This document shows, piece by piece, positions 7,543-55,372 of a stretch of 64,000 bases of DNA. The stretch's first letter is position 1, and each line of letters opens with the position of its first letter. The notes under the pieces were generated by a model that was not told where the DNA came from, did not search any database, and saw only the letters and a program-made list of their open reading frames with translations. The DNA is from Deferribacter desulfuricans SSM1 (lineage in GTDB: Bacteria > Chrysiogenota > Deferribacteres > Deferribacterales > Deferribacteraceae): NCBI RefSeq assembly GCF_000010985.1, contig NC_013940.1, positions 186,001-250,000 on the forward strand, in the 5' to 3' direction. The translations under genes were made by a program, and so were the position numbers.

Positions 7543-7587
7543 AATAATTTCCTCCTTTGTATATCATTTTTATTATTGTTTGTTGCT

Positions 7588-7616
7588 TATATAACAAAAA
7601 GGTTTAGTTATTTCAA
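7588..7616 (-). promoter_or_regulatory. Promoter of the 5911-7542 chemoreceptor
   Basis: On the minus strand, TTGAAA (7616-7611), 17 bases, TATATA (7593-7588). This is a sigma-70-like match about 45 bases upstream of the start codon. I saw no sigma-28 (flagellar) consensus here. Confidence 0.55.
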
Positions 7617-7736
7617 AATAATCTTATATTTTTTTTATAAATGTTTCATAATTAATGAATTAATAATCAAAATTAATAATAAATAATCAGAAATAAATTT
7701 GAATATATAAAATTATAATAAAATAGTAAAAATAAA

Positions 7737-7759
7737 AAAGAGGGTAAGTAACCCTCTTT
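7737..7759 (-). terminator. Terminator of the interrupted chemoreceptor
   Basis: AAAGAGGGT (7737-7745) pairs perfectly with ACCCTCTTT (7751-7759) around a five-base loop. In the minus-strand direction it is followed by a U-rich run. It lies ten bases after the stop codon at 7769. Confidence 0.8.
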
Positions 7760-7768
7760 AAATTATTT

Positions 7769-9474
7769 TTAATGATTAAATCTAAATTGTTTCATATAAT
7801 TTTTAACTTGGTTAAAATCAGAAGATTGTTGTGATTCTACTGCATTATCAATATTTTTATTATTAATATTTTTTTGTAATTTGAAATTACTTACAATGTG
7901 TTGAAGCCTAACTGCTAAATTTCTAAGTACTTCTGCTTGATTATGATTTTCCTGAGCAATTGAAGCATTTTCCTGTGATATTGTAGCTATTTCAACCATA
8001 TTACTTGCGATTTCCTGGCTTGTAGCTGATTGTTGATCTACTGCTGTAGCTACTGCATTAATTTTATCAGCTACATCCAATACACCATCTATTATTTTTT
8101 CTAAACCATTTTGTAAATTAACAACTAAATCAGAACCTTCTTGTGCTAGTTCTACCCCTTTATCCATTTCAGCAACAGATATTTCTACTTCTTGTTGAAC
8201 TGTTTTAATCATTTCATTAATTTCATCTGTTGCTTTAGTAGTTTTTTCTGCTAGTTTTCTGACTTCATCTGCCACTACTGCAAAACCTCTACCATGTTCC
8301 CCTGCTCTTGCAGCCTCAATTGCTGCATTTAAAGCAAGAAGATTGGTTTGATCTGCAATATCAGAAATTACTTGTAAAATTTCTCCAATTTGTTCTGATG
8401 ATTTACCTAATTGTCTAATTTTTTCTGCTGAATTAATTACATTATTTGATAATTTATTAATACCTGCTACTGTATTATTTATAACTTCTTTTCCTGTTTC
8501 AGCTGATGATTTAATTGTATTAATTTCTTGATTAATATCGTCTAAATTTTGACTAATTTCTGTGATTGTTGCTGTCATTTCATGTATTGCAGCTTCTACA
8601 GATGAAACTTTATTTGTTTGATGATCAATTCCTTTTTCCATTTGAATACTTGATTTAGTTAATATTTCAGATGTATTTGTTACATCTACTGTAGCATTAT
8701 TTACTTCGGATAGTGCTTTATTCATTTGTATTACCATTGAGTTTACATTTTCTATAATTTGACTTATTTCATCTTTTCTTTCTACTTTAAGTGTTTCGCT
8801 TAGATCACCTTTAGCAACTTTATTAAATAACTTTTCCAACTGCTTAATTGATTTTAATATGTTTTGACGGAATATATAACGTATTACCATCAATATTACT
8901 ATAAATGATATAATACTTATTATACCAAAAGACTTTAATGTAGATGCAATATAAGGATTTACTAACTCATCTTGGTAACTTCCACCAGCTATTATCCAAT
9001 CTCTCTTGGGATAATAAGTGTAAACAACAATTTTATTTCTTCCTTTCCATTTATAATTTATTATACCTTGTTTAGTGTTCATCATTTTTTGAATAAAATC
9101 ATATTTTGATACATTTTTCCCTTCTAATTTAGGTGATGGATGTAAAACTAAATTACCCTTTGAATCCAAAATATAATAATAACCTGTTTTGCCTATTTTT
9201 GTATCTTTAATAGTATGTTCAATATTAGCTAATAATTTCTTTTGAGTCTCAGTTATTTCTTTTATTAATTCCGCTTCTGGAATAGTTAGAACTATTACCC
9301 AATCTAACTCTGGGAAATACCTAAATACCGCCACAACTCTTGGATGATTTGCAACTGTTGCTCTTTTATAAATTATTTCTCCGTCTTGTAATTTCCATAT
9401 TTTCTCTATATGAGGAATTCCTTTTAAACTTTTACCTTGAGCCGTTGGATGTACAACAAGTACCCTATCTTTAT
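7769..9474 (-). pseudogene. Chemoreceptor (tandem Cache), C-terminal fragment, split by IS copy 1
   Basis: This is the downstream part of a methyl-accepting chemotaxis protein. It contains the end of a first Cache module ([25 protein letters not shown]), a second Cache module ([25 protein letters not shown]), a membrane helix, HAMP and the signalling domain with the same [12 protein letters not shown] tip as the neighbour. Joined to 11321-11723 it makes an uninterrupted 702-residue receptor; the junction reads [16 protein letters not shown], a normal Cache strand pair. A GTG inside the IS end is in frame, so a fragment starting MSCGWWRDK could still be made, but it would lack the first membrane helix and most of the first sensor module. 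Confidence 0.93.
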
Positions 9475-9950: not shown

Positions 9951-11282
9951 ATGATTACATGTCAAGCCTTTAAATTTAAACTCAAGACCAATGAAGAGTT
10001 AGAAAACAAGTTCGCCCAATTTGCCGGCTCTTGTAGGTTTGTATGGAATAAAGCTATTGCTTTAATAAAACAAAAGCTTGATATAAAAAAGGTAGATAAA
10101 ATCATCAATATCCACTTGCCACAATATTACAAAAATACTGCTACTATACCTACCTATAACGAAATGGCGGGAATGCTTAAATTATGGAAACAATCCGAAG
10201 AATACGCTTTCTTAAAAGAAGCACATTCTCAAATTCTACAACAAACCTTAAAGGATTTATACAAAGCCATAGACAGTGCTTTTACCAAAGGCAATGGTAT
10301 ATCTTTTCCAGACTTCAGGAAGAAAGGTAAATCGCCAGACAGCTTTAGATATCCTCAAGGCTTTAAGATAAATAACAATAGAATATTTTTACCTAAAATA
10401 GGATGGGTTAGGTTTTATAAATCAAGAAACATAGTTGGCAAACCAAAGAATGTAACAGTTAAAAGATACGCCGATGGCTGGTATATAAGCGTAGTTACCG
10501 AAAAAGACACATCAATTAAAGAAAATCTATCCAACCCCGTGGGTATAGATGTAGGTGTAAAAAAGATAATCACACTATCCAACGGTTGTTACTTCGAGCC
10601 TCTTGATTTAAGTAAATATGAGAAAAAACTAATCAAACTCCAAAGGCAACTCTCGAGAAAACAACACCCTACCAAAAAAGGAGATAAGACACCGTTTTCT
10701 AATAATTACAAAAAACACCAAAGAAAAATAGCAAAGATGTGGCTTAAGATAGCAAATGTGAGAAACGATTACCTACATAAAATAACAACAGCCATAGCCA
10801 AAAAACACGGCTTTGTGGCTGTAGAGAATTTAAAGGTTAAGAACCTAACCAAATCTGCAAAAGGCACAAAAGACAGCCCCGGACGTAATGTAAAAGCTAA
10901 ATCAGGCTTAAACAGAAGCATTCTTTCTCGAGCGTGGGGTAGGTTCTTTGAACTGCTTGAGTATAAACTCCAGAGAAATGGGGGGAAACTGGTTAGAGTT
11001 GACGCTAAAAACACCTCTATAACCTGTCCTCTATGTGATTACACTAATAAGGAAAACCGCAAAAACCAAGCGGTATTTGTATGCAAAAAGTGTGGTTTTA
11101 CGTCTAATGCTGATTTGGTAGGTGCGATAAATGTTTTAATGAGAGCGATGAGGAAGGAAAACCTTATAACCCTACCGCAGGGCTTGCGGGAAGTCACGCC
11201 TGTGGAGTATGCCAGAGAGTATACGCTGAAGCAGGAACCAGCGGGAAACCGTGAGGGATTACCGCTTCCATCGATAGCGTAG
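9951..11282 (+). CDS. tnpB: TnpB, RNA-guided nuclease of the IS605 group
   Basis: The 443-residue protein has the full TnpB layout: an N-terminal helix-turn-helix/WED-like region, a split RuvC nuclease and a zinc finger. RuvC acidic residues are all present: Asp200 in GIDVGVKK, Glu292 in AVENLKVKNL and Asp388 in SNADLVGA. The zinc finger is C359-x2-C362 and C378-x2-C381. TnpB proteins use an RNA from the right end of the element to cut DNA next to the element's target motif, here TTTAT. The gene is intact in all three copies. It is probably transcribed from a leaderless promoter overlapping the start of tnpA. Confidence 0.97.
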   Translation: MITCQAFKFKLKTNEELENKFAQFAGSCRFVWNKAIALIKQKLDIKKVDKIINIHLPQYYKNTATIPTYNEMAGMLKLWKQSEEYAFLKEAHSQILQQTLKDLYKAIDSAFTKGNGISFPDFRKKGKSPDSFRYPQGFKINNNRIFLPKIGWVRFYKSRNIVGKPKNVTVKRYADGWYISVVTEKDTSIKENLSNPVGIDVGVKKIITLSNGCYFEPLDLSKYEKKLIKLQRQLSRKQHPTKKGDKTPFSNNYKKHQRKIAKMWLKIANVRNDYLHKITTAIAKKHGFVAVENLKVKNLTKSAKGTKDSPGRNVKAKSGLNRSILSRAWGRFFELLEYKLQRNGGKLVRVDAKNTSITCPLCDYTNKENRKNQAVFVCKKCGFTSNADLVGAINVLMRAMRKENLITLPQGLREVTPVEYAREYTLKQEPAGNREGLPLPSIA

Positions 11283-23182: not shown

Positions 23183-24514
23183 ATGATTACATGTCAAGCC
23201 TTTAAATTTAAACTCAAGACCAATGAAGAGTTAGAAAACAAGTTCGCCCAATTTGCCGGCTCTTGTAGGTTTGTATGGAATAAAGCTATTGCTTTAATAA
23301 AACAAAAGCTTGATATAAAAAAGGTAGATAAAATCATCAATATCCACTTGCCACAATATTACAAAAATACTGCTACTATACCTACCTATAACGAAATGGC
23401 GGGAATGCTTAAATTATGGAAACAATCCGAAGAATACGCTTTCTTAAAAGAAGCACATTCTCAAATTCTACAACAAACCTTAAAGGATTTATACAAAGCC
23501 ATAGACAGTGCTTTTACCAAAGGCAATGGTATATCTTTTCCAGACTTCAGGAAGAAAGGTAAATCGCCAGACAGCTTTAGATATCCTCAAGGCTTTAAGA
23601 TAAATAACAATAGAATATTTTTACCTAAAATAGGATGGGTTAGGTTTTATAAATCAAGAAACATAGTTGGCAAACCAAAGAATGTAACAGTTAAAAGATA
23701 CGCCGATGGCTGGTATATAAGCGTAGTTACCGAAAAAGACACATCAATTAAAGAAAATCTATCCAACCCCGTGGGTATAGATGTAGGTGTAAAAAAGATA
23801 ATCACACTATCCAACGGTTGTTACTTCGAGCCTCTTGATTTAAGTAAATATGAGAAAAAACTAATCAAACTCCAAAGGCAACTCTCGAGAAAACAACACC
23901 CTACCAAAAAAGGAGATAAGACACCGTTTTCTAATAATTACAAAAAACACCAAAGAAAAATAGCAAAGATGTGGCTTAAGATAGCAAATGTGAGAAACGA
24001 TTACCTACATAAAATAACAACAGCCATAGCCAAAAAACACGGCTTTGTGGCTGTAGAGAATTTAAAGGTTAAGAACCTAACCAAATCTGCAAAAGGCACA
24101 AAAGACAGCCCCGGACGTAATGTAAAAGCTAAATCAGGCTTAAACAGAAGCATTCTTTCTCGAGCGTGGGGTAGGTTCTTTGAACTGCTTGAGTATAAAC
24201 TCCAGAGAAATGGGGGGAAACTGGTTAGAGTTGACGCTAAAAACACCTCTATAACCTGTCCTCTATGTGATTACACTAATAAGGAAAACCGCAAAAACCA
24301 AGCGGTATTTGTATGCAAAAAGTGTGGTTTTACGTCTAATGCTGATTTGGTAGGTGCGATAAATGTTTTAATGAGAGCGATGAGGAAGGAAAACCTTATA
24401 ACCCTACCGCAGGGCTTGCGGGAAGTCACGCCTGTGGAGTATGCCAGAGAGTATACGCTGAAGCAGGAACCAGCGGGAAACCGTGAGGGATTACCGCTTC
24501 CATCGATAGCGTAG
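23183..24514 (+). CDS. tnpB: TnpB RNA-guided nuclease, copy 2
   Basis: Identical protein to the 9951-11282 TnpB, with the RuvC triad and zinc finger complete. The DNA just beyond its element's right end starts AGTTTCTGATAGTATA and would supply the guide part of its RNA. Confidence 0.97.
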   Translation: MITCQAFKFKLKTNEELENKFAQFAGSCRFVWNKAIALIKQKLDIKKVDKIINIHLPQYYKNTATIPTYNEMAGMLKLWKQSEEYAFLKEAHSQILQQTLKDLYKAIDSAFTKGNGISFPDFRKKGKSPDSFRYPQGFKINNNRIFLPKIGWVRFYKSRNIVGKPKNVTVKRYADGWYISVVTEKDTSIKENLSNPVGIDVGVKKIITLSNGCYFEPLDLSKYEKKLIKLQRQLSRKQHPTKKGDKTPFSNNYKKHQRKIAKMWLKIANVRNDYLHKITTAIAKKHGFVAVENLKVKNLTKSAKGTKDSPGRNVKAKSGLNRSILSRAWGRFFELLEYKLQRNGGKLVRVDAKNTSITCPLCDYTNKENRKNQAVFVCKKCGFTSNADLVGAINVLMRAMRKENLITLPQGLREVTPVEYAREYTLKQEPAGNREGLPLPSIA

Positions 24515-41568: not shown

Positions 41569-42900
41569 ATGATTACATGTCAAGCCTTTAAATTTAAACT
41601 CAAGACCAATGAAGAGTTAGAAAACAAGTTCGCCCAATTTGCCGGCTCTTGTAGGTTTGTATGGAATAAAGCTATTGCTTTAATAAAACAAAAGCTTGAT
41701 ATAAAAAAGGTAGATAAAATCATCAATATCCACTTGCCACAATATTACAAAAATACTGCTACTATACCTACCTATAACGAAATGGCGGGAATGCTTAAAT
41801 TATGGAAACAATCCGAAGAATACGCTTTCTTAAAAGAAGCACATTCTCAAATTCTACAACAAACCTTAAAGGATTTATACAAAGCCATAGACAGTGCTTT
41901 TACCAAAGGCAATGGTATATCTTTTCCAGACTTCAGGAAGAAAGGTAAATCGCCAGACAGCTTTAGATATCCTCAAGGCTTTAAGATAAATAACAATAGA
42001 ATATTTTTACCTAAAATAGGATGGGTTAGGTTTTATAAATCAAGAAACATAGTTGGCAAACCAAAGAATGTAACAGTTAAAAGATACGCCGATGGCTGGT
42101 ATATAAGCGTAGTTACCGAAAAAGACACATCAATTAAAGAAAATCTATCCAACCCCGTGGGTATAGATGTAGGTGTAAAAAAGATAATCACACTATCCAA
42201 CGGTTGTTACTTCGAGCCTCTTGATTTAAGTAAATATGAGAAAAAACTAATCAAACTCCAAAGGCAACTCTCGAGAAAACAACACCCTACCAAAAAAGGA
42301 GATAAGACACCGTTTTCTAATAATTACAAAAAACACCAAAGAAAAATAGCAAAGATGTGGCTTAAGATAGCAAATGTGAGAAACGATTACCTACATAAAA
42401 TAACAACAGCCATAGCCAAAAAACACGGCTTTGTGGCTGTAGAGAATTTAAAGGTTAAGAACCTAACCAAATCTGCAAAAGGCACAAAAGACAGCCCCGG
42501 ACGTAATGTAAAAGCTAAATCAGGCTTAAACAGAAGCATTCTTTCTCGAGCGTGGGGTAGGTTCTTTGAACTGCTTGAGTATAAACTCCAGAGAAATGGG
42601 GGGAAACTGGTTAGAGTTGACGCTAAAAACACCTCTATAACCTGTCCTCTATGTGATTACACTAATAAGGAAAACCGCAAAAACCAAGCGGTATTTGTAT
42701 GCAAAAAGTGTGGTTTTACGTCTAATGCTGATTTGGTAGGTGCGATAAATGTTTTAATGAGAGCGATGAGGAAGGAAAACCTTATAACCCTACCGCAGGG
42801 CTTGCGGGAAGTCACGCCTGTGGAGTATGCCAGAGAGTATACGCTGAAGCAGGAACCAGCGGGAAACCGTGAGGGATTACCGCTTCCATCGATAGCGTAG
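41569..42900 (+). CDS. tnpB: TnpB RNA-guided nuclease, copy 3
   Basis: Identical protein to the 9951-11282 TnpB, complete RuvC triad and zinc finger. The flank after its right end starts TTTTAAAAGATAGATT and would provide its guide. Confidence 0.97.
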   Translation: MITCQAFKFKLKTNEELENKFAQFAGSCRFVWNKAIALIKQKLDIKKVDKIINIHLPQYYKNTATIPTYNEMAGMLKLWKQSEEYAFLKEAHSQILQQTLKDLYKAIDSAFTKGNGISFPDFRKKGKSPDSFRYPQGFKINNNRIFLPKIGWVRFYKSRNIVGKPKNVTVKRYADGWYISVVTEKDTSIKENLSNPVGIDVGVKKIITLSNGCYFEPLDLSKYEKKLIKLQRQLSRKQHPTKKGDKTPFSNNYKKHQRKIAKMWLKIANVRNDYLHKITTAIAKKHGFVAVENLKVKNLTKSAKGTKDSPGRNVKAKSGLNRSILSRAWGRFFELLEYKLQRNGGKLVRVDAKNTSITCPLCDYTNKENRKNQAVFVCKKCGFTSNADLVGAINVLMRAMRKENLITLPQGLREVTPVEYAREYTLKQEPAGNREGLPLPSIA

Positions 42901-46361: not shown

Positions 46362-46682
46362 ATAACCTCTTTAAAAATTATATTTTTGTTATACACTAAC
46401 CTATAATATTATATAACTAATCGTATCAAAAAATGATAATTTTTTTTATAATTTTTATAAAAATAATCTTTATTTATTGATTGATAATTTAATTGTTATT
46501 ATTATAACTTTATTTAGTTTGTGATTAATAATTAACATTCTAAAAATAATAACATATAGGTTTATATAGAAATACAAAATCTCTCACTTAATTTATATTT
46601 ATAATAATTTAACCTACAAAATATAACACTGTTTCACGTGAAACAAAATTTCTAACAACAGCAATAAATTATAATTTATCAA
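46362..46682. other. Intergenic region with parS
   Basis: AT-rich 321-base spacer between two minus-strand genes. It holds the parS site (listed separately). Apart from that I see nothing distinctive. Confidence 0.7.
46630..46645. promoter_or_regulatory. parS: parS partition site
   Basis: TGTTTCACGTGAAACA, a perfect 16-bp palindrome identical to the classical chromosomal-type parS bound by ParB. Only one copy was found. It lies about 4.5 kb left of parB (51123) and 40 bases beyond the stop of the Rep gene, on the other side of the origin region. ParB loaded here would spread across the origin. Confidence 0.93.
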
Positions 46683-47351
46683 TTATTTTTTAGATTTATA
46701 TAAAATAATATATTCCACTTTTCTATATTTATTACGCTCATATTTATAATTAATTTTATGACTTAATAAATCAGTTTGATTAATTTCATTGATACTTTTT
46801 TCTATAATAAATCTACAGAAATTCCTGTTGTTTAAAAAAACCGAATTATCTAATGTTAAAAGCTTTCTTAAAGTAGATAATTTGTACTTTATAACTGCCC
46901 TATTCTTAAATATAACTTTTGTCAGTAAATAGAATCTAAAGCTATAAAAGCTTTTAAATGAATTAAGAACTAAAACAGGTATTTCGATATTATAATTATA
47001 TTTAGTTACAATCTCATGGATCTTTTTGTTAACATAATAAAGAATATAATCCTTTCTTATAAAAATACCGTAAAAAATCTTTTTACTATTGTCTTTATAA
47101 TCTAATCTAATGTGTTCTAATGGCCTTTGATAGTTTTTTAGATAACGTAAAGATTCCTTTTTAAATTTATATCTATTCAATAATGTGGTTTTAGGCAATT
47201 TATCACTATTATCAATACTATTGAAATAATTATCAATCAAACATAACAGTAATTTATAAGCATTAATCGACTTAACAAAAACTTCCCTATTATCACCAGA
47301 TTTAAACCCTAGATTGTAAATAAATAAAGTTGAAACTTTCAATCTATCCAT
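46683..47351 (-). CDS. Plasmid replication initiator of the Rep_3 (RepB) type
   Basis: The 222-residue product has a C-terminal half that fits the second winged-helix domain of Rep_3 initiators: SFYSFRFYLLTKVIF, KYKLSTLRKLLTL, FLNNRNFCRFIIEKSINEIN, then KYERNKYRKVEYIILY. The family pattern is 's.ya.rLYe.l', 'l.elr..l', 'f...vl..ai.EIN', 'k.gRkv..i.f'. The first half could be the WH1 domain. Rep_3 proteins bind repeated sites in the origin. The gene is divergent from the DnaA-like gene across the repeat region. Its own promoter is so close that the mRNA may start at or next to the ATG. Confidence 0.65.
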   Translation of the reverse strand: MDRLKVSTLFIYNLGFKSGDNREVFVKSINAYKLLLCLIDNYFNSIDNSDKLPKTTLLNRYKFKKESLRYLKNYQRPLEHIRLDYKDNSKKIFYGIFIRKDYILYYVNKKIHEIVTKYNYNIEIPVLVLNSFKSFYSFRFYLLTKVIFKNRAVIKYKLSTLRKLLTLDNSVFLNNRNFCRFIIEKSINEINQTDLLSHKINYKYERNKYRKVEYIILYKSKK

Positions 47352-47540: not shown

Positions 47541-47566
47541 TTATTCACATATTTACGTGTGAATAA
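47541..47566. promoter_or_regulatory. Inverted pair of DnaA-box-like sites
   Basis: TTATTCACA (47541-47549) and TGTGAATAA (47558-47566) form an inverted pair eight bases apart. Each differs by one base from the TTATCCACA DnaA consensus. Confidence 0.6.
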
Positions 47567-47719: not shown

Positions 47720-47878
47720 TTGCATAACTATTATATTATTTGCATATAGTAAATAAAACATTGCATATATTATGTACAAAACTACATAAAAGAATTTCAT
47801 ACTTATTGCATTTAATACTTTTTATTTCCATATGCAATAAACGCAAAAATATATGCAATATAAAAAATATATATGCAA
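47720..47878. repeat. Facing arrays of 20-21-bp-spaced iterons
   Basis: Three direct TTGCAT boxes at 47720, 47740 and 47761 (spacing 20 and 21) face three direct ATGCAA boxes at 47832, 47853 and 47873 (spacing 21 and 20). One further TTGCAT at 47806 lies 26 bases before the reverse set. Two-helical-turn spacing is typical of plasmid iterons. Confidence 0.85.
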
Positions 47879-47928
47879 TAGATCTAAAAAGGAAATAATT
47901 ACTTAATAAAAAAGAAAAACAAGCAAAC

Positions 47929-47937
47929 TTATCCACA
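47929..47937. promoter_or_regulatory. Consensus DnaA box
   Basis: TTATCCACA, exact consensus, between the two clusters of TTGCAT boxes. The same 9-mer also occurs at 46336 and 814 inside genes, so a single hit alone proves little. Confidence 0.55.
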
Positions 47938-48030
47938 TATACACAGCAATATAATATTATTGTGTTTAAAAAACAAAATACAATAAAACAAAAACAATTA
48001 AACAACATTCAAAACAGTGCAAAAATAATA

Positions 48031-48571
48031 TTGCATTTGCTTTAAAAATATTATTAATGCAAATAAAAACATTGTATTTGACAATATATGTATAACATAG
48101 ACACTATATATACAAACTTAATTACATAAAATTTTATAATAAATCTCTTAAGTAATTAAAATGCAAATAGATACAAAACAAAAAATATTTGCATATACTT
48201 ATAGAAAAATCTAAATGCAAAAAAATAAATTGCATATAGATATAAATGCAAGATTATTTATTGCATATACAGTATAATCAATATCAACTGCAAACAAAAA
48301 ATAATCTATGCAATAAAAATATATGAAGTTAACTATTGCATTTATTCGATAATATCTTTAAATGCAATAAATTATATTGCATTTGCTTATAATTTAACTA
48401 CTCTGAATTTAATAAAAATTAACAAATACAATTTAAAAATTTAAATAATTATTTCACACCTTTTGCATATATACTGCATATTTTAGTTAATGCAATAAAA
48501 TATATTGCATTATTATATTAATCAACCTTATGCAATTGCATACAAACTATATGCAAAATTATATATTGCAT
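48031..48571. repeat. Cluster of paired inverted TTGCAT/ATGCAA boxes
   Basis: Nineteen boxes. Five pairs read ATGCAA-N9-TTGCAT (starts 48215, 48246, 48362, 48490, 48551). Three read TTGCAT-N20-ATGCAA (starts 48031, 48189, 48336; a fourth is at 47806). Two read ATGCAA-N22-TTGCAT (48161, 48308). One is a contiguous palindrome, ATGCAATTGCAT (48530). The last pair abuts the promoter of the dnaA-like gene. Confidence 0.85.
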
Positions 48572-48636: not shown

Positions 48637-50244
48637 ATGAATGAAAATATAGAAAATACACCTGAAATACCTGAAATTATCAAAATAAAATGCGAAGGAA
48701 TAGAAGCTTTATTTCAAAAATATATAACAAAACTCGCAGATCCTCTAAATGATGAAAGAAATAAAAATAATTTCAGTATTATGGATATTTCTGCTTTAGC
48801 TAACATTAAAATTGATTGCATATATAAACAAGAAAACAATGAAGAAATCTATAATCTTATACTACATATAAATCCAACAATATATAAAAAACTAAATAAT
48901 GACACTGAAAAGAAAAAAAGAATTATCGATATAATAGAATTTATCTTAAATAGAATTAAACAAGCATTTAATATTGAAAAAATAAACTTTCAAATTGAAC
49001 AACAAATTTCCTATGAACAAATATTAGAGCCTAAAAATACTTTAATCATAAATGGTATAAAGGGAACCCCTCAATATACATTTGATAATTTTATCGTAGA
49101 TACTAGTAATGAATTAGCATATCACTATATTAAAAATATTGCCGAAAACAAACTACGAGATGGACTAACAGTTTTATTATATGGTCCTACTGGTTTAGGT
49201 AAATCTCATTTATTACATGCAATGATAAATGAAATGAAACAACATTATGAAGGAGTAGTAAATTTTTATACAGGAGAAATCTTTTTTAGCGAAGTAATGG
49301 ATGCATTTCGTAAAAAAGAAACATACATATTTAGAGAACAACAAATTGAAGCTGATATGCTAATTATAGACGACTTACATTTTGCTTTAAAAAAAGCAAA
49401 TGAAGGATTTATTAGTTTTTATAACAATATATTAAATGAACGAATTAACAGACAGAAATGGACACTACTTACAACTGATAGACACCCTGAAGATTATATT
49501 TTTGATATAGTTAATGATACTGTAAAAGAATACTATGAAACACTTATTCAAAATAATACTGATATTCAAACCTTAAACTTATATATTCCAGTAAGAGATG
49601 GAACTACAATAAAATACAAACTCCATGCAAGTTTTGTATCAAGACTTTTAAGTGGAATGGTATTAGAAATTGTAAAACCAACCTTTATGGCAAAAAAAAG
49701 ATTTTTCTGGAGTAGATTATCAAGTAAATATTTAAATAAAGACTATAGATTAACAGAAGAAGAAAATAGACTAATAGATATTTTTATATCTGAAGTTTCT
49801 AGTGATTTTAGATATCTAAATGGTATAGTTAATAAAGTTGGTTTTCGTATTTTAAATGAAAAAATAAGTCTTAAAGAAGCTTTAATTCAATCAATAAAAG
49901 ATTACTCTAACTTTGAAATTGATGATATTATAGTTAACAGACATGTTGAAGAAAAAAGTCTAAAATTAATTATAGAAAAATTATTAAATGGCTTACCTTA
50001 TACTTATGAAAGATTATTTTCAACAAAGCGAATTAATCCAGAACTAAAGAAAATAAGAGATCTAATTTTTTATATACTAATGGAAAAATATTTTTATAAA
50101 CAGAAACAGTTAGCTCAAGTTTTCAATACAGATATAACCACAATCTGGAGAGCCAGAAAAAATATTGAAAAAATAATAGAAAAACAACAAGACGAAGAAA
50201 CTATCAAACTTTATAATAAATTAATAAATAATGTATATAATTAA
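48637..50244 (+). CDS. DnaA-like AAA+ replication initiator with divergent DNA-recognition loop
   Basis: The 535-residue product has a central part that follows DnaA domain III closely: YTFDNFIVDTSNELAYHY, Walker A GPTGLGKS (183-190), Walker B MLIIDDLHFA (Asp245-Asp246), LLTTDRHPEDY and the Arg-bearing SRLLSGMVLEI. The C-terminus is a domain-IV-like HTH, QLAQVFNTDITTIWRARKNI. The signature D-H-T-T-V-x-H-A of ordinary DnaA is changed to D499-I-T-T-I-W-R-A, so another box than TTATCCACA is likely recognised. About 60 extra residues lie between the sensor regions. It should open the adjacent origin. It is followed by parAB on the same strand. Confidence 0.88.
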   Translation: MNENIENTPEIPEIIKIKCEGIEALFQKYITKLADPLNDERNKNNFSIMDISALANIKIDCIYKQENNEEIYNLILHINPTIYKKLNNDTEKKKRIIDIIEFILNRIKQAFNIEKINFQIEQQISYEQILEPKNTLIINGIKGTPQYTFDNFIVDTSNELAYHYIKNIAENKLRDGLTVLLYGPTGLGKSHLLHAMINEMKQHYEGVVNFYTGEIFFSEVMDAFRKKETYIFREQQIEADMLIIDDLHFALKKANEGFISFYNNILNERINRQKWTLLTTDRHPEDYIFDIVNDTVKEYYETLIQNNTDIQTLNLYIPVRDGTTIKYKLHASFVSRLLSGMVLEIVKPTFMAKKRFFWSRLSSKYLNKDYRLTEEENRLIDIFISEVSSDFRYLNGIVNKVGFRILNEKISLKEALIQSIKDYSNFEIDDIIVNRHVEEKSLKLIIEKLLNGLPYTYERLFSTKRINPELKKIRDLIFYILMEKYFYKQKQLAQVFNTDITTIWRARKNIEKIIEKQQDEETIKLYNKLINNVYN

Positions 50245-50263: not shown

Positions 50264-51121
50264 ATGGAAAAATTTGTACTTTCAGTAGCGTCACATAAGG
50301 GTGGGGTAGGGAAGACAACTTTATGTTTTGAATTACCATTTTTATTATTAGAGAGAGGTTATAAAAATATACTAATAATAGATCTTGATCCTCAAGCTAA
50401 TTTATCTGAAAAGTTTATTGATGACGAAGAAGTGAAAAGTAAACTATCAGTATCTGAATTTTTAAATTATGTAAATGAACATGAATTTACAAAAGATATG
50501 ATGATAACAGCTTTACAATTATTGGATGAAATAATTATAAAATACCCTTTTAAAAAAGACATTATTAGTGTTATCGGTTCTAACTTAACTTTAAGCAAAG
50601 TAAAATTAAAAATGCAAAATAACACAAATATTATTTTCAGAATTAAAGAAATTACGTCTATATTTTTTAAGGATTATGATGCTGTAATTATTGATTTACC
50701 ACCTAGTGTTGAATTTTTAACTATACTGGCTTTATCCATATCCACTCATTTTATTATTCCAACTACCTTAGATAGAGATTCTATCCAGGGTATTGATGAC
50801 ATATTATCCTTATATAATGAAATTCATAGATTTTATAATAAAAATCTTTCATTTGTAGGAATTATACCAACACTCGTAGATAATAGAACTTTAATAGATA
50901 AACATTTAAAAACAGCATTAAGAGAAGGCTATGCTAATAAAGTATTTCAATCCCAAATTAGTAGATCAACCAAAATAAGAGAATCGCTATCTTTTAAAAA
51001 ATATATTGGTGAAATGTATTCTCAAAACGAAAAAATAATCCAGGAATTAAATCTTTTTACTGATGAATTATTAACTAAAATAAAAAATAGTAATAAAAAT
51101 AGAGTAGGGCAGGTCAGTTAA
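50264..51121 (+). CDS. parA: ParA partition ATPase
   Basis: The 285-residue product is a deviant-Walker ParA/MinD-type ATPase that moves replicon copies apart. The P-loop is SHKGGVGKTTL with signature Lys12 and Lys17; Walker A' is IIDLDPQANLS; Walker B is AVIIDLPPSV. There is no N-terminal HTH, so it is unlikely to repress its own operon directly (the type Ib/chromosomal pattern). GAGAGGA precedes the ATG. It lies 19 bases after the dnaA-like gene and one base before parB, so one transcript from the origin promoter is likely. Confidence 0.95.
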   Translation: MEKFVLSVASHKGGVGKTTLCFELPFLLLERGYKNILIIDLDPQANLSEKFIDDEEVKSKLSVSEFLNYVNEHEFTKDMMITALQLLDEIIIKYPFKKDIISVIGSNLTLSKVKLKMQNNTNIIFRIKEITSIFFKDYDAVIIDLPPSVEFLTILALSISTHFIIPTTLDRDSIQGIDDILSLYNEIHRFYNKNLSFVGIIPTLVDNRTLIDKHLKTALREGYANKVFQSQISRSTKIRESLSFKKYIGEMYSQNEKIIQELNLFTDELLTKIKNSNKNRVGQVS

Positions 51122-51122
51122 A

Positions 51123-52109
51123 ATGAGTAAGAAGAAAAAATATGAAGATTTGCTGAAAGATAAATCTTTATTTAAAAAAAATACAGCTTCTGGTTTGTTA
51201 TCAAAAGATGCTAATTATAGAATTACCTTTGAAGATAAAAAATATTTTCAAGATGATATACCTATAGCTAAGATAAATATAAAACCACAAGTAAGACAAA
51301 AAATAGATACAGACTCTGAAAGCTATAGAGAGCTTGTAGAGAGTATTAGAAGAAGAGGGGTATTACAACCTATAATTGTAGTAAAAAGCGTTGAGAATGG
51401 AGAATACGAACTTGTAAGTGGAGAAAGAAGAGTAACCGCAGCTAAAGAATGTAGATATGAATTTATACCAGCTGTAATTTTTGAAGATTTAACGGAATCT
51501 GACATATTAGAAATTCAATTAATAGAAAATTTACAAAGAGAAGATTTAACCACATTTGAAAAAGCATTAGGATTAAAAACTTTAGCTGAAAAAATGTTTA
51601 AAGTGGACACTATTGATGAGCTAATTAAATTGTTATCAAATAAATTATTTTCCAAAAATAATAACTCTACTTCCACAGTGGAAGTGGACACAAATTATTC
51701 AATAAATTTACGTCAAATATATCGTTATGTGTTATTATTTGCTTTTCCTGAAGATTGTATTGAATTAGTTAAAAATAGTTCTAAATTTCCTGTAAGAGTT
51801 TTTGATATACTTTATAAATATAAAAATCATCCTGAAATAACTAATATTTTTAAATTAATAGCTGAAGGTAAATTAAACTCGACAAATTTAAATACATTTT
51901 TAAATAAATTAGATTCAAATATAAATAAAGAAGAACCAGCTAAAAAGAAAAGAATTAGAATTTATAACAAACTTAAAAAAATTGATACTAACTTTGATGA
52001 ACTATTAAAAGATGATTTAATTGTTAAAGATAAAAATAAAGCTGAAGAAATTATTAAACAAATAGAATATAAATTAAATCGTTTAAAAGAGAAATTATTC
52101 TCAAAATAA
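51123..52109 (+). CDS. parB: ParB partition protein with an insert in its HTH
   Basis: The 328-residue product is a CTP-dependent parS-binding clamp. The N-terminal domain has VRQKID, ESIRRRGVLQPIIV, SGERRVTAA (Glu101-Arg-Arg103) and IQLIENLQREDLTTFEKALG, all standard. The HTH region is split: between the first helix (IDELIKLLSNK) and the recognition helix (INLRQIYRYVLLFAFP) lies a low-complexity insert of about 18 residues (174-192, FSKNNNSTSTVEVDTNY). This insert is encoded by a perfect DNA palindrome that recurs after the gene. The C-terminal part is the dimerisation domain. ParA stop and ParB start are one base apart. Confidence 0.93.
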   Translation: MSKKKKYEDLLKDKSLFKKNTASGLLSKDANYRITFEDKKYFQDDIPIAKINIKPQVRQKIDTDSESYRELVESIRRRGVLQPIIVVKSVENGEYELVSGERRVTAAKECRYEFIPAVIFEDLTESDILEIQLIENLQREDLTTFEKALGLKTLAEKMFKVDTIDELIKLLSNKLFSKNNNSTSTVEVDTNYSINLRQIYRYVLLFAFPEDCIELVKNSSKFPVRVFDILYKYKNHPEITNIFKLIAEGKLNSTNLNTFLNKLDSNINKEEPAKKKRIRIYNKLKKIDTNFDELLKDDLIVKDKNKAEEIIKQIEYKLNRLKEKLFSK

Positions 52110-52246
52110 AATTCTCTTAAATTATCTTAAAATATAGTTACTAAAATATGATTATTAAGTGGACACTTTAAAAAATCGTATAATTTTTTATTAATAAAAG
52201 AAATTTTAACTATCATATTGGTTACTTCCACAGTGGAAGTGGACAC
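51601..52246. repeat. AAGTGGACAC repeats and a repeated 17-bp palindrome in and after parB
   Basis: AAGTGGACAC occurs at 51601, 51682, 52157 and 52237, all in the same orientation. The perfect palindrome ACTTCCACAGTGGAAGT occurs at 51669-51685 (inside parB) and 52224-52240 (downstream); both copies run directly into an AAGTGGACAC repeat. These are much richer in G+C than the surrounding DNA. They could be a second binding site for ParB or another replicon protein, or remnants of a small mobile sequence. Confidence 0.85.
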
Positions 52247-52765: not shown

Positions 52766-55372
52766 TTAGCTACATTTGCTATACCCACAATCTTTACAGG
52801 TATAGCAACCTCTGATCCCAGATTTTTCAATATTAGTACTACCACAATTATCGCATTCTTCTAAAATATCTGATTCATATTCATTAAACTTATAATTTTC
52901 ATTATTTTCTGGACCGTTTGTTCCATTGCCATTTGTAAACTGAATAATTTTTTCTGGTTGATTAAATTTAATATCAACTATTGGTTTTGCATATTCATAT
53001 ACATGTTTAAAGAAATCCTTGTATCTTTTATGTAAACTTAATACATATCCAATTGCATCTGGTAATGATTTAATCATTTTAGATTGATCATCTTCTAATA
53101 TGTAATTATAGGTTGGTGTCTGACCAGAAATTCCAGATAAAGAATCTATAATTGATTCTGGACTTAATCCTACTCGTAACCACTGAGATATTAACCTTCC
53201 TAAAGCTTCTGCTTGTGCTGATGTATTACTACCTGATTTACCTGTAGTAATTATACATTCAAAAGGATTACCTTTATTATCATAATTAATAGTAATTAAT
53301 ACTTTAGAAGGACCAATTTTAATTTCTCTTGTTAATCCAAATAGTATTTGTGGACGTTCTTTTTTTATTAAAACGTTTGGTATTTGAACTTCAGTATTTG
53401 TATTTTCTTGACTAATTTCCGAAGATGTATGTTTTTTTGGTTGTTCAATAACTGTTGTTTTATTCTTTTGGGATTTATAATATTCTAAATAAGCCTTCTC
53501 ATCATAATTAAATTTCTTTGTAAATAAATCTATATCTATAGTGTTTAATACTTGTACACCTTTACTTTTATCACGATAAACAGTAATTCCTTTACAGTTT
53601 AGTTCCATGGCTTTTAAATAGATATTTGCAATATCCTCTTCTGTAGCAGTTTCAGGTAAATTAATAGTCTTACTTACAGCTGATTCAACATATTCTTGCC
53701 ATTTGCTTTGAATTTTAAGATGCCAATCAGGTGAAATATCCATAGCTGTTTTAACATATTCTGGTATATTATTTTTATCAACAAAATGCTTTACAGAATC
53801 ATTCCATACAATTCTTGTTCCAAACGAATCCTCTCTTATATAACCTAAAGAGAATAGGGGCTCTATACCTGAAGAACATCCAGCTATTAAAGAAATTGTT
53901 CCTGTTGGAGCTATACATGTAAGTGAAGCATTTCTTCTTTTTATATATTTATCTTTAATATATGTATATTCTTTTCTGCTTATTTTATTTTCTTTGTATA
54001 ATTTTTTTACTTTTTCTAATAATTTATCTGCTAAAGGAAATACACCGTATTGTTCGCCATATTTTATGCTTGCTTCTTCTGTTTTTTCTTTTAATACAGA
54101 ACCAACTGAATCTATCATTGTAAGTGCTTCATTACTATCATATGATATACCCATTTTAATAAGAGCATCAGCAAAACCCATTACACCTAAACCTATCTTC
54201 CTTGTTTCTTCTACAGCTTCAGTAATTTGAGGTAGAGGATAGTTATTAATATCAATTACATCATCCAAAAAATGAGTGCAATCTTCCACTACTTTAGCAA
54301 AAGCATCTATATCAAAATAAGCATTATTATGAGCATCAGATTTAACAAATTTAGCTAAGTTAATAGATCCTAAGTTGCAAGCTTCATTAGGAAAAAGTGG
54401 TTGTTCGCCACATGGATTAGTTGCTGTTATATTGCCTTTAATATATTTTAAATAATTGTATTTATTTATAGTATCAATATTCAATAATCCTGGGTCTCCA
54501 CATATCCATGCTGATTTAACTATTTCATCAAATAATTGTTTAGCCCTAACTTTTTTAATAACTTTACCAGTATTAGGTTCTTTTAGTTCCCATTCTTCAT
54601 CGTTCTTAATAGCTTCTAAAAATTTATTTGTAATACCTACAGAAATATTGAAATTAGTTAAGGTTTTATTGTCTCTTTTAATTTTAATAAATTCTTCAAT
54701 ATCAGGATGATCTACATTTAAGATACCCATGTTAGCACCACGTCTAACTCCACCTTGTTTTACATGCTCTGTTGCACTATTGTAAATTTGCATGAAAGAC
54801 AATGCACCACTTGATTCACCTTTTGTACTTGAAACCAGAGCACCTTTTTGACGTAATTTTGAAAAGTTAAATCCAGTACCACCACCTGATTTATGTATTA
54901 AAGCAGTATTTTTTAGCGTTTCAAAAATACTTTCCATGCTGTCATCTATATCAAGTACAAAACACGCAGAATAACACATATTATTACTATCAGCATTTAC
55001 TAATAACGGAGAATTAGGCATAAAAATACCCTGAGCCATTAAGTTGAAGTAAGTTACATATTTTTTTATAAAATTAATATCCGTTACATAATTATTTAAA
55101 TTATGATATTTAACAAATTTTGCTGATGCTACTTTGAAAGCTACTGTGTGAAAAACGTCTAAAAAAGATTTATAATAATCTTTTTTATTTCTTTTTTGAA
55201 ATATACCTTCAAATAAAGAATCTGTAGTACTGCCAAGATCTAATTTCTTATGTAATAACGAATAATACTCATTTACATGCTTATTAATATATTCCCAAAA
55301 TGCAACTCTGTTTAGTAAATATTCATCTGGAGACAAAACATCTTTTTTTGAGTCAATAACATTGCTTCTCAT
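52766..55372 (-). CDS. nrdJ: Class II (adenosylcobalamin-dependent) ribonucleotide reductase
   Basis: The 868-residue enzyme reduces ribonucleotides to deoxyribonucleotides without oxygen-dependent radicals. It has the large-subunit barrel motifs: [16 protein letters not shown] with the redox Cys, [26 protein letters not shown], the active-site loop [21 protein letters not shown], and [23 protein letters not shown]. The C-terminus has the Cys-rich ribbon typical of NrdJ (CDNCG then [13 protein letters not shown]), which recycles the active site. Length is normal and no intein is present. It lies 37 bases after the 55410 gene. On a replicon it would supply dNTPs for its own copying. Confidence 0.95.

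Follow-up and report, generated by a model that had tools for sequence, protein, structure and literature searches.

Deferribacter desulfuricans SSM1 has a 2,234,389-bp chromosome and a 308,544-bp plasmid (PMC6896113), giving a total of 2,542,933 bp. The window analysed here is a 64,000-bp stretch of this megaplasmid (NC_013940.1, positions 186,001 to 250,000), and coordinates are those of the window unless stated otherwise. From left to right, the locus described below is composed of a parS site, a Rep3_C-like gene, an inverted pair of canonical DnaA boxes, an array of TTGCAT/ATGCAA boxes that encloses a third DnaA box, and the dnaA2, parA and parB genes. The dnaA2 gene (48637–50244, plus strand) predicts a divergent DnaA paralogue of 535 aa with an AAA+ domain and a domain IV fold, and its start codon is 66 bp from the last box of the array. 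parA (50264–51121) and parB (51123–52109), both also on the plus strand, follow dnaA2 in what is presumed to be a single operon. The host chromosome has its own DnaA. The Rep3_C-like gene (46683–47351, minus strand) is divergently oriented, starts 370 bp from the array and encodes a protein of 222 aa that matches Pfam PF21205 with 24.0 bits (cut-off 21.1). The Rep3_N domain was not detected in this protein, whose Rep3_C match passed the cut-off, and the product is a possible second initiator.

The inverted DnaA-box pair, TTATTCACA at 47541 and TGTGAATAA at 47558 (47541–47566), could alternatively be a Rep operator. The third box, TTATCCACA (47929–47937, plus strand), lies in a gap of the array. 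Canonical TTATNCACA boxes are thus clustered, as in an oriC-type origin, with three in 400 bp (p = 0.003 for random placement on the megaplasmid). A perfect parS, TGTTTCACGTGAAACA (46630–46645), is the sole perfect copy on the megaplasmid and is 1.1 kb from the array. The chromosome carries two copies of the identical parS, at 9.2 and 11.5 kb, which places them close to the chromosomal dnaA when the ends of the record are joined. The lone megaplasmid site has the chromosomal sequence although the megaplasmid encodes its own ParB, and host ParB might act on it. A 17-bp palindrome, ACTTCCACAGTGGAAGT, is found inside parB (51669–51685) and again after parB (52224–52240), where it is also terminator-like. 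These are the only two copies in the genome, and the palindrome is a candidate site of the plasmid ParB. Together, dnaA2-parAB, the Rep3_C-like gene, the three TTATNCACA boxes and the lone parS support assignment of the locus as a replication-control region.

Further right, a gene for a B12-dependent ribonucleotide reductase (52766–55372, minus strand) adjoins the replication and partition locus. Elsewhere in the window, a TnpB-like IS605 gene of 443 aa is repeated at 9951–11282, 23183–24514 and 41569–42900, each copy beside a 141-aa ORF. The protein of the copy at 41569 is identical to that of a copy at 997–2328 of the megaplasmid.

Composition and geometry of the box array

The array includes 26 copies of the hexamer between 47720 (233.7 kb on the megaplasmid) and 48571, directly upstream of dnaA2-parA-parB. 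Base composition predicts 0.38 copies. All of the hexamers reported in the initial annotation, which had also expected well under one copy, are present, but the local G+C content is 18.7% rather than the approximately 15% that it had assumed. The annotation had proposed a count across the full replicon as a check. The whole megaplasmid carries 190 copies, and the densest other 850-bp stretch contains 4. All five occurrences of the pair ATGCAA-N9-TTGCAT in the genome (2.54 Mb) are within the array, and a genome scan with the reversed control of this pattern gave 0 matches.

The boxes fall into three sets. In the left group (47720–47878), TTGCAT boxes at 47720, 47740, 47761 and 47806 face ATGCAA boxes at 47832, 47853 and 47873. 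The middle set is a single TTGCAT-N20-ATGCAA pair (48031–48062), and the right group (48161–48571) is made up of 17 boxes. The N9, N20 and N22 pairs, the direct triplets at 20/21 bp and the two facing arrays are all arranged as first described. The spacing of a four-box module at 48161 is reproduced exactly at 48308, and the likeness of the spacers (41%) is near that expected by chance (36%), indicating that the spacing is what is kept. Adjacent boxes coincide in orientation and spacing class 19 times compared with 1.8 expected, and 0 of 20,000 random arrays reach 19. When gap lengths are kept and their order is reshuffled, the spacing classes remain significant (p = 0.00045). Inversion is the predominant arrangement (18 of the 25 adjacent pairs), and only the 6-bp core is conserved, with weak extra conservation 3′ of the hexamer. 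The array region is AT-rich, which would fit chance or low-complexity enrichment, but 26 copies against 0.38, together with spacing and phasing at p < 0.001, leave this explanation a negligible probability, and the counts refute it.

Boxes in the same orientation keep phase at 10.5 bp, whereas inverted boxes are displaced by half a turn, in agreement with the initial reading. If the centre of the footprint is placed ∼2.5 bp 3′ of the centre of the hexamer, all boxes lie on one face of the helix. With this offset, R for 10.5-bp phasing is 0.785 among pairs no more than 70 bp apart. Random arrays average 0.08, and the observed value is reached by none of 1000 random arrays and none of 1000 orientation shuffles. 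The effective steps between adjacent boxes become 20–21 bp in most cases and ∼10–11 bp in three. A single offset parameter therefore accounts for both the in-phase direct boxes and the half-turn displacement of the inverted boxes. The initial annotation had proposed an initiator complex that wraps DNA with a defined geometry; the support does not extend to wrapping, and the geometry is strongly supported but is simpler than the inverted-pair grammar suggested there, which reduces to one rule of one footprint offset, one face, and steps of one or two turns. An offset in the opposite direction (−2.6 bp) fits the phase equally and was rejected on steric grounds, as the proteins at 48530 and 48536 would then be separated by 0.8 bp. 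The 3′ direction matches the side on which the box shows slight additional conservation, and would agree with a DnaA-like footprint composed of a major-groove core and an AT-rich minor-groove tail.

DnaA2 and the related locus on pCALNI01

DnaA2 matches the Bac_DnaA AAA+ domain (PF00308) with 98.8 bits (E 4.8e-28), far above the cut-off. A Pfam search with the C-terminus as a single sequence missed domain IV. In hhalign comparisons with the chromosomal domain IV, however, the probability was 91% when both known DnaA2 proteins were used and 34% with the megaplasmid protein alone, compared with <1% for shuffled controls. The full-length single-sequence model was of insufficient quality (pLDDT 42.6). 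The predicted structure of residues 367–535 (pLDDT 75) has 3pvp and 1j1v as its best Foldseek matches in the PDB (probability 1.00, rmsd 1.9–2.1 Å), both of them DnaA domain IV–DNA complexes. No Pfam match to DnaA_N (domain I) was found in DnaA2, and a low-confidence model shows an alpha-beta N-terminal domain.

On our reading of an alignment with E. coli DnaA, Walker A, Walker B, the arginine finger (R336) and sensor II (R392) are kept. The equivalent of E. coli Arg399, which enters the minor groove (PMC5742627), is also kept in this alignment, as R474. The GGRDHTTV signature is lost, with FNTDITTIW in its place, and E. coli His434 reads Ile. Recognition-helix changes in domain IV have been proposed to underlie changed box cores in Epsilonproteobacteria (PMC5043019). 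Assignment as an orthologue of the chromosomal DnaA was rejected, as DnaA2 lacks a GGRDHTTV-type signature and scores 135.1 bits against the NCBIfam equivalog TIGR00362, below the required 343.9. DnaA2 is therefore, as judged from alignment and modelling, a divergent DnaA paralogue with an AAA+ domain and a predicted domain IV fold at the C-terminus.

Only one other dnaA2-parA-parB module was found, on plasmid pCALNI01 (NC_014749) of Calditerrivibrio nitroreducens, where the gene order is the same and the proteins are homologous (25–29% identity). A different array occupies the same place. Directly upstream of dnaA2 are 10 GTTAG boxes (7572–7770 on pCALNI01), made up of a set of four that faces an oppositely oriented set of five, and one outlier. 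The two loci share this arrangement of facing groups but differ in the box, which is YGTTAGTTTT on pCALNI01, and in its steps, mostly of 11–12 bp. No TTGCAT cluster and no match to parS were found on pCALNI01. No Rep3-family gene was found in the Calditerrivibrio genome in a search with PF01051, and none is annotated on pCALNI01. Wider searches found no further relatives of dnaA2 in viral contigs, one match in genome contigs, to the AAA+ region only, in an alphaproteobacterium, and AAA-region or partial matches only, most of them unannotated, in a phage collection. A match on a Sphingomonas plasmid was discarded as an ordinary dnaA among housekeeping genes. The box pattern occurs in at least 120 stretches of viral contigs, nearly all with a single chance-like match.

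As dnaA2 is the shared neighbour of both arrays, the comparison makes DnaA2 the favoured candidate for the protein that reads the boxes. The boxes might instead be sites of the divergent Rep3-like initiator in an unusual iteron origin, with the 20–21-bp steps as iterons and dnaA2 as an accessory gene. Rep3-type iteron plasmids have direct iterons spaced two turns apart, and the array resembles them in the spacing of its direct boxes and in having a Rep3_C-like gene starting 370 bp away. It differs in having only a 6-bp core and mostly inverted order in place of direct iterons of about 17–22 bp, and in that Rep3_N was not detected in the neighbouring protein. An array also lies upstream of dnaA2 on pCALNI01, yet no Rep3-family gene was found there, and an iteron origin of this kind is unlikely. 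The array could also be the centromere of the plasmid ParB, perhaps with origin function, as at cisII/cisMP of Deinococcus (PMC7671480). It lies just upstream of an operon containing parA and parB, and this holds for both Deferribacterota plasmids, but the gene adjoining it is dnaA2 and not parA, a perfect parS is only 1.1 kb away, and a separate twin palindrome is present in and after parB. There is accordingly only a slight chance that the array is a centromere.

On balance, the array is somewhat more probably than otherwise the initiator-binding and operator region of the replication and partition locus, to which the megaplasmid's DnaA2 is expected to bind. An ordered array bound by the megaplasmid's own DnaA paralogue and serving both initiation and control of the operon is the most likely arrangement. 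Domain IV of DnaA2 would contact TTGCAT through the major groove and, through the minor groove, the AT-rich tail on its 3′ side, and ATP-DnaA2 molecules would line up on one helical face, approximately every two turns and sometimes every turn, in either orientation. The multimer would open AT-rich DNA nearby and load the helicase, and would also repress or time expression of dnaA2-parAB, while the three canonical DnaA boxes would let host DnaA help. Against this reading, the Rep3_C-like gene is equally close to the array, and the duplex here does not rank with the least stable on the megaplasmid. The covariation of box and protein rests on two points, as only two dnaA2 plasmids are known.

A broader and more tentative proposal, which falls a little short of even confidence, is that plasmid DnaA paralogues of Deferribacterota, each with AAA+ and domain IV, form a family whose members have each evolved a private box code orthogonal to the host TTATNCACA (TTGCAT here and YGTTAGTTTT on pCALNI01) and assemble along a single face of the helix, in steps of one or two turns, with boxes in either orientation. 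Chromosomal origins, unlike this, have close head-to-tail box arrays. If the proposal is true, each of the two plasmids is a natural experiment on how a DnaA alters the sequence that it recognises: host and plasmid DnaA coexist in the same cell, and three box codes are available for comparison. The one-face rule describes, in testable form, an orisome that is indifferent to the orientation of its boxes, and such orthogonal initiator-origin pairs may be of use for building replicons.

GC skew and the position of the origin

Over the first 154 kb of the megaplasmid the GC skew is positive, and over the remainder, to 308 kb, it is negative. The sign changes, near 307 and 154 kb, are diametrically opposite, are also seen in third codon positions and non-coding DNA, and do not coincide with the dnaA2/parAB locus at 234 kb. 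When GC skew at third codon positions was split into transcription and replication components, the replication component was −0.19 and −0.20 on either side of 234 kb. This absence of change indicates that long-term fork direction was set elsewhere, and it weighs against initiation by DnaA2 at the array. Bidirectional replication that had long started at 234 kb would be expected to have left a flip in skew, and the array does not show the switch expected of an oriC-type origin. If the polarity of the chromosome's skew is applied, the skew origin of the megaplasmid is placed near 307 kb.

The array may thus be an operator or titration site for DnaA2 or another regulator, with the working origin at the switch near 307 kb, as the diametrically opposite flips would suggest. 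However, no cluster of canonical DnaA boxes was found at 307–308 kb, none of ten proteins tested on both sides of the switch matched an initiator family, and no convincing dif-like site was found at the skew maximum. The recognised initiator, partition and parS features are all at 232–238 kb. The megaplasmid carries 34 IS elements (PMC6896113), and the skew pattern may be older than a rearrangement of this IS-rich replicon. The combination of a control array here and a working origin near 307 kb is improbable. Either the replication module has moved recently, or the working origin is elsewhere and the array is a control array. The initial annotation had named the array an origin; the gene context fits a replication-control region but the skew flips at ∼307/154 kb and not at 234 kb, and the identification as the origin is likely but unproven.

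Comparison with known replication systems

Like E. coli oriC, the array contains numerous short, asymmetric boxes and precedes a dnaA-type gene, and the face-to-face grouping of its direct boxes is reminiscent of the pair of arrays in opposite orientation at oriC (Rozgaja 2011, as cited in PMC5742627). It differs in the box, which is TTGCAT and not TTATNCACA, in steps that are mostly of two turns, and in being carried by a megaplasmid that encodes a second, divergent DnaA, at a place away from the skew minimum. The Rhodobacterales DnaA-like replicons, such as pPGA1_262 of Phaeobacter inhibens, likewise have an initiator named after DnaA near parAB. The pPGA1_262 protein is 227 aa with DnaA_N and winged-helix-type matches and without an AAA+ ATPase domain, whereas in DnaA2 the AAA+ domain is present and DnaA_N gave no match, and DnaA2 was therefore not assigned to this type. 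The cisII/cisMP regions of Deinococcus radiodurans are also repeat arrays with putative DnaA boxes that precede the partition operon of a secondary replicon, but are composed of 18-bp direct iterons (PMC7671480). Those replicons have no known initiator, and host DnaA and the cognate ParB bind the arrays (PMC7671480). The megaplasmid array, which would work like a DnaA-box origin, is of a known kind but shows features that are new.
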